A stretch of 64,000 bases of DNA from Selenomonas sp. TAMA-11512 (GTDB lineage: Bacteria > Bacillota > Negativicutes > Selenomonadales > Selenomonadaceae): contig NZ_AP029018.1 in the NCBI RefSeq assembly GCF_037076525.1, positions 62,001-126,000 of the forward strand, read 5' to 3'. The position numbers and the translations under genes were made by a program. How positions within the stretch are numbered: the first letter of the stretch is position 1; each line of letters starts with the position of its first letter. Below the pieces are notes generated by a model. That model was not told the DNA's origin and searched no databases. It saw only the letters and a list, made by a program, of their open reading frames with translations. Shown piece after piece: positions 3,854 to 60,452 of the stretch.

Positions 3854-3884
3854 ATTATATAATAGCAATTTCATATGGTTGGGC

Positions 3885-4056
3885 TAGGTGTCGTTAGACT
3901 CAATAGGGAATTCGGTACAAGCCGAAGCGGTCCCGCCACTGTAACAGCAAGCGACTTTGCATAAGAACGGACAGCGTTCTTAGTCACTGGGAGACGGTCT
4001 CTTGGGAAGGCGCAAAGAAGCGATGAACTGAAGCCAGGAGAACTGCCTAGTTGACA
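3885..4056 (+). promoter_or_regulatory. Cobalamin (B12) riboswitch aptamer
   Basis: The landmarks of the cobalamin aptamer appear in order: AGGTGTC near 3886, GGGAATTCGGT near 3906, CCCGCCACTGTAA near 3932, and the closing AAGCCAGGAGAACTGCC near 4031. The last pairs back toward the opening GGCTAGGT. The region lies between a strong promoter and the importer operon. Family knowledge says cobalamin binding turns such operons off. Confidence 0.93.
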
Positions 4057-4163
4057 ATCACCGACTGACCTGCGAGTGACGGGGATGGGGATTTTGCAAG
4101 TGGACGCACGTACTATGCCTGCGCCTATGCGGCATGGGATTTTTCTGCCGCCAGAATCTGCAG

Positions 4164-17941: not shown

Positions 17942-18098
17942 TTAAGAAGCACGGATGCATGCCGTCCGATCTACCGGTTCATTCTTTTCATTCGCTCTTC
18001 GCCTTCGAATCCTTCACAGAGCAAAGCTTTGTCTTCGACTTGCTGTTGTGTTCGGATGAACAATCGTACCGATCCGACAGTATCAGCGATTCCTTTAC
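17942..18098. repeat. MITE-like element, copy 2
   Basis: The left end (TTAAGAAGCACGGATGCATG) and the inverted right end (TATCAGCGATTCCTTTAC) match the ends of the element at 43020-43189. The interiors share AATCCTTCACAGAGCA-like and TTGTTCGGA-like blocks. No coding frame is evident. It occupies most of the leader before the gene at 18169. Confidence 0.6.
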
Positions 18099-33849: not shown

Positions 33850-34059
33850 CAGGATCGTTTCCTTTCTGTGGCGAGGAATGCTTCCTCAAATATCTGTGCA
33901 GCATGAAATACCGCCTTATAACTTCGATCCGCCTGCGGAATACTCCTGCACAGGGGAAGCATAGAGGGGAAGAAGATATGCCGGGACGGCTGTGCCGCAT
34001 GTATCCGTGATTCTGTGCTGAATTTATAGTGATTCCTAATCCACACTTTCGGATGCGTA

Positions 34060-41047: not shown

Positions 41048-42796
41048 CTATCTTCGTTTCAATTTTCGGCTGATCGTGCTCTGATCCACGCCCAGAGCTT
41101 CGGCAATGCGCGTCGTCGTCCTGTACTGCCTGCGCGCCATCTCAATCAGCTGCTCCTCCACAAGGCGCTGCGCCTCGCGCAGAGGGATAATCGCCTCCAC
41201 CCGAACGGGCTCGCTGCACAAATCGGACTGCAGGGATTCCGGCAGACTGTCGACGCCGATCACATCCTGCGGCGCGAGAACCACCATCCGCTCAATCGCG
41301 TGCTGCAGCTCCCGCGTGTTCCCGTCCCATCGGCTGCGCGAAAAGGCGTCCATGACATCGGCGGAGAGGCGGCGGTTCAGCCGGTATTTCGCGTTGTATT
41401 TTTTCAGGAAAAAGAGGGACAGAGGCAGTATGTCCTCCTGCCGCTCGCGCAGCGGAGGTATGCGGAAGTGCACGACGTTCAGCCGGTAGTACAGATCCCT
41501 GCGGAACAGACCCTTGTCGATCTCCGCCGGCAGCTCCTTGTTCGATGCGGCGATGATCCGCAGATCCAAGGGGATCGTCTTCGTTCCGCCCACGCGCATG
41601 AACTCGTTGTCCTGCAGCACGCGCAGAAGTTTTGCCTGCAGGCCGACGGGAATCTCGCTGATTTCGTCCAGGAACAGCGTGCCGGACTGGGCGAGCTCGA
41701 ACAGCCCCGGCTTGCCGCTGCGCTCCGCCCCCGTAAAGGCGCCGCGCTCATAGCCGAACAGCTCCGACTCGAAGAGCGTCGGCGGCAGCGCGCTGCAGTT
41801 GATCTTGATGTACGGCTTTTCGGCGCGCGGGCTCTTGGCGTGGATGAAGTTCGCGAGCACCTCTTTGCCGACGCCGGAATCCCCCGTGATGAGTACGGGG
41901 ACATCGGTCTCGCTCACCTTCAGCGCCATGACCGCGATCTTCTTCATTGCCGGGCTCTCCGCGATGAACGCGTTGTTCTGCTCCTCCTGCATCTGACTGC
42001 GCGCGAGCTCGCGCTTATAGCCTTCGAGCAGGAGGCGCGTCTCGTTCAGCTCCTGCGAGAACTCGCTCTCATCCACGATGAGCCGCGACGTATTGATCAC
42101 GCGGACAATCCGATTTTCCTCGTCGAATATGGGCGTCCCCATGACGAGGAGCTTCTTTCCCGTCGCCGTCGTCTGAATCGCCTGCACACGGCGCTTCGAT
42201 TCGAGCACCATGCGCGTAATGGACGGATAGAAAATGCGCTCCTTTTCCAGCTCATAGACGCTTTTGCCGACCAGCTGCTCGGCGTCCACACCCCAGATCG
42301 CGGTCGCAGCCGAGCTCACCTCGAGAGTCCTGCCCGTATCGTCCGAGGCGTAGATCACGTCCCAATTGGTCTCAAACAGCTTGTGGATGTCCTCCGCCAT
42401 GTGGCTGTAGCTCATTTCCATCGCGGCAACATCAGCCATGCCGCGGTGGTGGAAGCGCATCTCCATCGCGCCGACGCGCTTGCCGTCCGAAAAGATGCTG
42501 CTGAGGGCGACGATATCATTGTCTTCCTGAAAGACCAGCTTCGTCTCGGTCGGGTACTCCAGCGCTTTGAGGATGGAGTCCGCCTTGCCGCACGCTTCGA
42601 TCGGCATCCCTAAGATCTGTGCGAGGCTCGCGCCCCGCGCCATGCAATACGCTTCATTCGCCTTGACAATGCGCTTTTCCGTGTCGATTACGACGATCTC
42701 GCAGAGGAACGCGTCCAGCAGCATTTGCTCCGAAATCTCGGCAGGTCTTATGTTGTCATCCGCGGATGGGATATTGCGTCTTTTATTCATGTGCAT
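41048..42796 (-). CDS. Sigma-54-dependent transcriptional activator with two PAS domains
   Basis: The 582-residue protein has PAS domains at about 25-130 (FLCEIVVIDTEKRIVKANEA) and 150-265 (WDVIYASDDTGRTLEVSSAA). An AAA domain covers 300-530 with Walker A GDSGVGKE, the sigma-54 contact GAFTGA and Walker B TLFLDEISEIP. A Fis-type helix-turn-helix ends it (TRIAEALGVDQSTISRKL). The PAS pair should sense a small molecule or redox state. It almost certainly drives the -24/-12 promoter at 40943, which begins the downstream four-gene operon. The start is ATG 42796 or 42790. Confidence 0.92.
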   Translation of the reverse strand: MHMNKRRNIPSADDNIRPAEISEQMLLDAFLCEIVVIDTEKRIVKANEAYCMARGASLAQILGMPIEACGKADSILKALEYPTETKLVFQEDNDIVALSSIFSDGKRVGAMEMRFHHRGMADVAAMEMSYSHMAEDIHKLFETNWDVIYASDDTGRTLEVSSAATAIWGVDAEQLVGKSVYELEKERIFYPSITRMVLESKRRVQAIQTTATGKKLLVMGTPIFDEENRIVRVINTSRLIVDESEFSQELNETRLLLEGYKRELARSQMQEEQNNAFIAESPAMKKIAVMALKVSETDVPVLITGDSGVGKEVLANFIHAKSPRAEKPYIKINCSALPPTLFESELFGYERGAFTGAERSGKPGLFELAQSGTLFLDEISEIPVGLQAKLLRVLQDNEFMRVGGTKTIPLDLRIIAASNKELPAEIDKGLFRRDLYYRLNVVHFRIPPLRERQEDILPLSLFFLKKYNAKYRLNRRLSADVMDAFSRSRWDGNTRELQHAIERMVVLAPQDVIGVDSLPESLQSDLCSEPVRVEAIIPLREAQRLVEEQLIEMARRQYRTTTRIAEALGVDQSTISRKLKRR

Positions 42797-43019
42797 CGCC
42801 TTTTCATGTCAACAGCGACAAACCGGATTATTCACAGAGGAGGCGCTTGACGCTGACGGTAGTCTGCGCCGCCTCCTTTTCAGCTTCAGCTCCATTATAC
42901 CGTGCGTATTTTTGTGCGTCAATGCAGGGCTGTCCGAGAGAAGCAAACAAAAGAAGTAAGCGGAAAACGGACACGGCTCTGCCGAATTTCACTTTATCAA
43001 AGGCTCCTTAATAAATCCT

Positions 43020-43189
43020 TTAAGGAAGCACTGATAAATTCAGCCCGATCATCTTGGCGCATCTTTTCCGCCCGCACTTCGGCGGCAAATCCTCCACAGA
43101 GCACCACTCTGCGTCCGGTTTGCCACCTTTGTTCGGACGAAAAAATCTGCACCAATCTGACAGACTTCATTTTATCAGCGATTCCTTAA
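43020..43189. repeat. MITE-like element, copy 3 (best preserved)
   Basis: Ends are inverted: TTAAGGAAGCACTGATAAA on the left, and TTTATCAGCGATTCCTTAA on the right, inverted relative to it. The 170-bp interior has no coding frame but shares blocks with copy 2 (CACAGAGCA, GTTCGGA, CTGACAG). A further right-end-like segment (TTTATCAAAGGCTCCTTAA) lies at about 42993-43012, as if two elements abut. It fills most of the space between the activator and flavodoxin genes. Confidence 0.65.
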
Positions 43190-43300: not shown

Positions 43301-43735
43301 ATGGCAAAGGCAGCAGTTGTATTTTGGAGCGGAACGGGCAACACCGAGGCGATGGCGAACGCGGTCGTTGAGGGTGTGAAGAAGGGCGGCGCGGAGGTCG
43401 AGCTGATCCGTGTCGGCGATTTCTCCGCCGATCGGATCGCGGATTACGCGGGCGTGCTCTTCGGATGCCCCGCCTGCGGTACGGAGGAGCTGGACGATAC
43501 GGAGTTCGAGCCGTTCTTCGCCGAGGCGGAGGGCAAGCTTTCGGGCGTGAAGGTCGGACTTTTCGGCTCGTACGGATGGGGCGGCGGCGCGTTCATGGAG
43601 ACGTGGGCGGAGCGCACGGAAGCGGCAGGCGCCAATATGGTCGCGGACAGCGTGACTTGTGAGACAGAGCCGGACGCTGCCGCCATCGCACAATGCGAGG
43701 CGCTGGGCGAAGCGATGGCAAAGGCGATTGCGTAA
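43301..43735 (+). CDS. Flavodoxin
   Basis: The 144-residue protein begins AAVVFWSGTGNTEAMANAVV, whose SGTGNTEAM loop binds the FMN phosphate. VLFGCPACGTEELDDTEFEP and GLFGSYGWGGGAFMETW supply the isoalloxazine-binding loops. The length is that of a short-chain flavodoxin, a soluble one-electron carrier that replaces ferredoxin in anaerobes. It is a single gene with a GAGGAGG ribosome binding site and its own terminator at 43761. Confidence 0.93.
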   Translation: MAKAAVVFWSGTGNTEAMANAVVEGVKKGGAEVELIRVGDFSADRIADYAGVLFGCPACGTEELDDTEFEPFFAEAEGKLSGVKVGLFGSYGWGGGAFMETWAERTEAAGANMVADSVTCETEPDAAAIAQCEALGEAMAKAIA

Positions 43736-60306: not shown

Positions 60307-60337
60307 AGGATGACCTTTCTTTGTGTGGATTTCGTGG

Positions 60338-60452
60338 AAGCACGGATGAAAGGAAGCGCTCCGGTTTGGCAGTGACCTATCCGGGAGACGAACCGGGCGC
60401 AGAGAGGGCAGAAAGATGTGTCAAGACGACGGGGATGCATGCATCCGTGCTT
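60338..60452. repeat. MITE-like element, copy 4, with perfect 11-bp ends
   Basis: AAGCACGGATG at 60338 is matched by CATCCGTGCTT at 60442. The left-end sequence is shared with the element at 17942. Inside, GCGCTCCGGTT pairs with AACCGGGCGC, so the RNA would fold strongly on either strand. It lies just upstream of mobAB and could affect its leader. Confidence 0.5.

Follow-up and report, generated by a model that had tools for sequence, protein, structure and literature searches.

IS5-type MITEs of Selenomonas sp. TAMA-11512 and a strongly supported candidate for a conserved structured RNA in their interior

An element between two divergent genes and its copies in the genome

The window, the whole 64,000-nucleotide stretch analysed here, covers positions 62001-126000 of a genome that consists of one contig of 2,593,422 bases. 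Between a sigma-54 activator gene (41048-42796, minus strand) and a flavodoxin gene (43301-43735, plus strand) lies a divergent gap that holds an element of exact layout, GGAAGCACTGAT...ATCAGCGATTCC, bordered on each side by TTAA (Table 1). A preliminary description of the window had proposed a family of MITE-like elements with related ends, and this family is not only real but was understated. Its places 17942-18098 and 60338-60452 hold a diverged full-length copy and a diverged, shortened one, the latter giving no match to the RNA core model described below, while 728-774 is a marginal, ends-only remnant. Among its further end-like pieces, that near 61574 stands as a single end, whereas the one near 42993, adjoining the window element, found no statistical support. 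The remnant of another end had been missed altogether. The window also contains a cobalamin riboswitch (3869-4064, 89.4 bits).

Table 1. Coordinates and properties of the elements and related features (window positions unless prefixed C1)
Feature	Position	Strand	Remarks
Full-length element, 162 bp	43024-43185	minus (RNA sense)	one of about 65 full-length genome copies
Target-site duplication TTAA, left copy	43020-43023	none	
Target-site duplication TTAA, right copy	43186-43189	none	
Terminal inverted repeat GGAAGCACTGATAAATTC	43024-43041	plus	common to IS5-family transposon ends
Terminal inverted repeat GGAATCGCTGATAAAATG, as read on minus strand	43168-43185	minus	
Conserved core, predicted structured RNA (model R1)	43048-43161	minus	119.8 bits, E 4e-30
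Diverged full-length copy	17945-18093	minus	element profile E 5e-14
Core of this diverged copy	17969-18078	minus	RNA core model E 1.8e-4
Diverged copy, internally shortened, GGAAGCACGGATG-type ends	60336-60452	plus	element profile E 1.8e-6
Ends-only remnant, internally deleted	729-771	none	element profile E 0.009, marginal
Remnant of one end, missed in the preliminary description	33964-34013	plus	element profile E 3.3e-4
Single end-like piece TAAGAAGCGCTGAT	61580-61593	minus	3 mismatches
Second-repeat insertion in MITE (L115)	C1:133239-133345		
Second-repeat insertion in MITE (L132)	C1:622957-623062		
Second-repeat insertion in MITE (L165)	C1:1912899-1913004		
Second-repeat insertion in MITE (L048)	C1:2328464-2328570		
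Intact IS5 copy of a relative (L087)			1,244 bp, 343-aa transposase
Intact IS5 copy of a relative (L089)			1,263 bp, TTAA duplications

When the genome and its relatives are searched for the ends, it is clear that the copies extend far outside the window, contrary to the concern that they might be confined to it. A search of this genome for the end pattern GGAANCNCTGAT gives 189 occurrences, as compared to a single one for a reversed-pattern control, which rules out base composition as a chance explanation. We have placed 182 of these ends and searched the stretches around them with a profile built from 45 end-paired copies, giving 109 distinct loci at E <= 0.01 (94 at E <= 1e-5), with 31 more perfect ends outside these loci; 40 scored places, out of 165 candidates, match the window element at 85-100% identity. 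Counted in this way, from the searches and the stretches around their matches, the family comprises at least 109 recognisable loci. About 65 copies are full-length (158-163 bp). The remaining size classes comprise remnants of 38-72 bp that retain only the ends, and four copies of 266 bp, in each of which a second repeat occupies an identical position.

This second repeat, of about 107 bp (ACCATGAAACCCCAAGAGGTC...), sits at the same point within four MITEs of two subfamilies (Table 1), lies in reverse orientation inside another one (C1:165162-165268, in L117), and occurs at 14 places in the genome. Its diverged copies fold (z about -2.5 to -4.5) and it has no Rfam match; this MITE may be the target of what would then be a further structured, mobile repeat. 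Two genomes of the same genus (G185 and G186) have one element copy with identical surroundings (L256 and L258), and this old shared insertion should be useful for measuring decay after divergence.

Target duplications and an IS5-family source

The preliminary description had called for a search for target duplications and for a full transposon with matching ends, and both have been found. Exact 4-bp duplications flank 25 of the 65 full-length copies, compared with 6.9 in shuffled flanks (maximum 14 in 500 shuffles), and 4 bp is the only duplication length with a strong excess around these copies. The commonest duplicated sites include TTAA, CTAG, CTAA and TTAG, and YTAR is the target of the IS5 group. 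With its length of 158-163 bp (below about 400 bp), its lack of a transposase gene and its 4-bp YTAR duplications, the element has the characters of an IS5-type MITE. One copy, at C1:1830583, interrupts an ISL3 transposase pseudogene and is flanked by TTCA duplications; its two flanks can be joined in frame, upon which the ISL3 match rises from 45.9 to 55.8 bits and reaches profile position 234 instead of 225. The surrounding stretch (C1:1829724-1830900, L056) consists of nested remains, in which a frameshifted IS5 copy adjoins the ISL3 pseudogene that holds the MITE.

A search with DDE_Tnp_1 and DUF772 detected in this genome a broken IS5-type transposase with the same left end, GGAATCGCTGATAAATTC, and a protein search returned nothing but fragments from this genome, and intact copies from relatives. 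The intact copies L087 and L089 have the termini GGAAACACTGATAAAT and GGAAACACTGATTAA; ends of the GGAANCNCTGATAAAT type are common to the MITE and to both of them, and the shared terminal repeat is about 18 bp. The relatives' transposase carries PF05598 and PF01609, and is assigned to the IS5 family by NCBIfam with 293.6 bits (cut-off 140). Thus, the earlier suggestion of a transposase elsewhere that moves the copies holds in that an IS5 transposon with the same ends is present in relatives, although only broken copies were detected in this genome. The element and its type of mobility are as certain as sequence allows, and we infer from these footprints that the element itself has transposed. 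Spread by plasmids or phages was considered and rejected, since blastn gave no match in plasmids to the window copy or two relatives and none in phages to one relative, and viral contigs contained no exact pattern match.

A conserved rod-shaped core with changing ends

The interiors are devoid of a conserved coding frame, as had been proposed. A frame of 48-49 codons from ATGAAG runs open in one subfamily, but 28 copies have a stop after codon 7 and 12 lack the frame; in 43 of the 65 copies the longest shared frame is likewise short or missing, so that a protein-coding interior was discarded. That the interior could fold as RNA is supported far more strongly than originally proposed. On the minus strand, 43020-43189 folds into a single long rod (-93.7 kcal/mol, z -11.4), and on the plus strand it folds more weakly (-56.3 kcal/mol, z -5.8); the same, sense strand folds better in 64 of the 65 full copies, with means of -73.8 versus -45.4. 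We aligned 47 copies, drawn from this genome and from relatives of several genera, and obtained 53 pairs with 97.3% of the cells paired. Compensatory changes are found in 29 of these pairs, compared to 14.5 +/- 1.9 in shuffles (none of 500 as high), and sliding the pair partners by 1-3 columns produced no comparable signal in this alignment.

In order to separate the core from the ends, we have built a covariance model of the core alone (R1, 113 positions), which matches 92 of 380 genomes of the window genome's class, probably Negativicutes, in 27 of 102 genera and at least eight families. The number of core copies per genome reaches about 100, with 101 in G282 (another family), 23 in G194 and 32-39 in two genomes of another family, and an exact core search found it in Centipeda periodontii, Selenomonas massiliensis, Selenomonas sp. 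FOBRC6 and Mitsuokella sp. oral taxon 131. A class-wide alignment based on sequence alone, with 48 cores that come mostly from different genera and families, shows compensatory changes in 39 of 40 pairs as compared to 29.0 +/- 2.1 in shuffles, and 354 compensatory cells as compared to 103 +/- 9. The class-wide consensus energy is -63 for the sense strand versus -44 for the other, and some unpaired core positions are kept in 80-100% of the sequences, across genera and families. Rfam 15 contained no relevant match to the element, either for the window at the gathering score or for three locus sets at E <= 1 to 5.

The ends behave differently from the core. Beyond the window's family most are still IS5-like (GGGAACCGCTGATTTAATGA in G282 and GGGAGCCACTGACTCAATGA in G194), and other ends on the same core are GGGCGTGTTGATTAAAT in genus g17 and GGCCTTGTTTAATAAAT in G110. 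Comparison of MITE ends with the IS5 copy of their own genus gave a match in g9 and g3 and failed in g7 and g25, where the IS ends differ or were not found; the IS5 copy examined in g7 lacks the MITE's ends, and GGCCTTGTTTAATAAAT of G110 likewise differs from the ends of the IS5 copy examined there. An IS5 transposase with matching ends is thus indicated for some lineages and not for all. Since the same core occurs with differing ends across genera, the core outlasts its ends, which may have changed by gradual drift alongside the resident transposase or through exchange. Two copies, each the single one in a genome of another family, L277 (G300) and L278 (G292), reach only 41-45 bits with the core and have quite different ends (TTCAAAAAGGTTCAGATGC...CAGATGGGCCTTTTTCAA in L277); they possibly form a separate, wider superfamily that shares the apical motif CCGGAGGCGTAC.

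Strand asymmetry, level of selection and relation to known repeats

We have also counted mispairs, with G.U and A.C given equal treatment in the pairing register. In the copies of this genome there are 499 G.U versus 146 A.C cells, and by majority the consensus pairs (G.U:A.C) stand at 8:1 in this genome and at 7:2, 8:2, 5:0 and 6:2 in other consensus sequences. Over 34 class representatives the counts are 186 G.U and 111 A.C, with G.U commoner in 24 and A.C in six, and the sense strand is the more stable in all 34. For the private mutations, those on Watson-Crick pairs in this genome went 18 times to G.U and 16 times to A.C, and overall 43 G.U versus 33 A.C were found (p = 0.30), with no clear strand preference in this test of limited power (76 events). 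A strand-specific mutation bias would be expected to mark the private mutations too, and since none is clear, the asymmetry belongs to the propagating consensus. Selection thus seems to act on the propagating lineage, with resident copies not clearly held to the structure, although weak selection on them is possible.

Taken together, these patterns argue that the element is probably a MITE moved in trans by an IS5-family transposase, with one conserved, rod-shaped RNA of about 113 nt as its payload that is selected in the transposing lineage. The transposase would act on the MITE ends, and the payload would be a single structured RNA read from one fixed strand of the element. From the covariation, the strand-asymmetric pairing, the conserved unpaired bases and the class-wide distribution, a structured RNA is strongly supported by sequence comparison and folding models, and the core presumably works as RNA. 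A point against this is that no enrichment of -35-like sequence turned up ahead of the element. The RNA would be selected in the lineage that keeps transposing, with landed copies decaying almost neutrally; because selection is visible on this lineage and not clearly on residents, the RNA would most likely serve the element's own spread or tolerance and not the neighbouring genes. The transcript may fold and aid in this, for instance through a factor of the host or of transposition that it binds. A farther-reaching version is unlikely in our judgement. In it, what selection preserves over the long term is the conserved RNA instead of the ends, so that the RNA would be a selfish element of the whole class that has swapped or re-evolved its terminal repeats between IS5 lineages. 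Its folded transcript would be required for the DNA transposition of the element, or would promote it (RNA-assisted DDE transposition).

It is similarly unlikely that this is an ordinary MITE, with a palindrome that is a feature of the DNA alone (its fold-back arms being held alike by replication slippage, arm conversion or cruciform constraint) and an RNA fold that is its by-product. Palindromic MITEs are common, both strands can fold, and the residents have neither clear strand-specific selection nor an orientation bias to genes, all of which would suit such an origin. Arm conversion, however, would yield perfect palindromes, whereas each element retains about 12 mismatched positions, and these lie at conserved places; moreover, the imperfections of the consensus are G.U and not A.C on one strand, and unpaired bases are kept across genera and families.

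A slightly less probable account is that the sense strand is used as structured single-stranded DNA in replication or transposition, as in hairpin-recognising systems. The structure does sit within a DNA transposon, and DNA tolerates G.T mismatches better than A.C, so that G.T would be preferred to A.C in a hairpin of single-stranded DNA as well, and the RNA form is not proven. IS5, on the other hand, belongs to the double-strand DDE systems and has terminal repeats as well as target duplications, and the copies have no clear replication-strand bias (about 28 leading and 37 lagging, from binned counts), which does not favour a role at the replication fork. A DNA form has also been raised by the authors who described a comparable mobile motif (PMC11109978).

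The least probable of the alternatives, and a very improbable one, is a cis-acting regulatory repeat of the ERIC/NEMIS kind that alters the stability or termination of the mRNAs containing it and is kept for that effect: the very stable hairpin does lie in intergenic gaps (all 65 full-length copies, by a simple codon-usage gene caller that is crude), and for ERIC of Yersinia an action as RNA hairpin has been reported (PMC2267715), but the RNA sense is the same as that of the upstream gene in 29 copies and opposite in 36, where an ERIC/NEMIS-type cis hairpin would be expected to show a bias of orientation or position relative to its genes, no enrichment of -35-like sequence relative to shifted controls was found upstream for a promoter completed by the flank, the residents show no clear structural selection, and no terminator-like site was found around the window copy. 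The lack of orientation, promoter or replication bias argues against such a role, and an effect of the copies on the genes that they precede, as first suggested, is not supported.

Returning to the IS5-moved MITE with an RNA payload, comparison with known repeats places it close to the IS5-derived MITEs, which are likewise short, non-coding, intergenic and of high copy number, with ends of about 18 bp common to an IS5 transposon and 4-bp YTAR duplications. Typical IS-derived MITEs have lineage-specific interiors, whereas the interior here is a class-wide conserved structured RNA and not an IS remnant. ERIC, NEMIS/Correia and BOX are also mobile intergenic repeats with transcripts that fold into hairpins, but their sequences, hosts and termini are different and these families are confined to narrower host groups, whereas the present core spans a class with changing termini. 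REPINs, too, are short, palindromic, mobile repeats with many copies, and the transposase that moves them is encoded at another place; however, they depend on RAYT (Y1) transposases, consist of paired REP hairpins and lack the 4-bp YTAR duplications. The closest published kind of structured mobile motif is the 'mobile/repeat sequence candidate' class (PMC11109978). Its example MRSC-65-2 shares the single long covarying stem, the dozens of copies per genome, the lack of consistent gene orientation and the occasional nearness to transposases; it carries conserved UYCCGG repeats, which are absent from 33 of 34 representatives here, and is set apart by this description, although a distant relation is possible. 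A literature search, of incomplete coverage, found no Selenomonas-type MITEs.

As a rule, MITEs are regarded as passengers without content, with only their ends to define them. In the present case, both the structure and the unpaired sequence of the interior are kept across many families of one class, with ends that change. R1 provides a covariance model for an RNA that is now missed in the annotation of Selenomonas-like and related genomes, and, as the constraint is visible in the consensus and not clearly in settled copies, the question of whether an RNA is needed for a bacterial DNA transposon to spread becomes testable.
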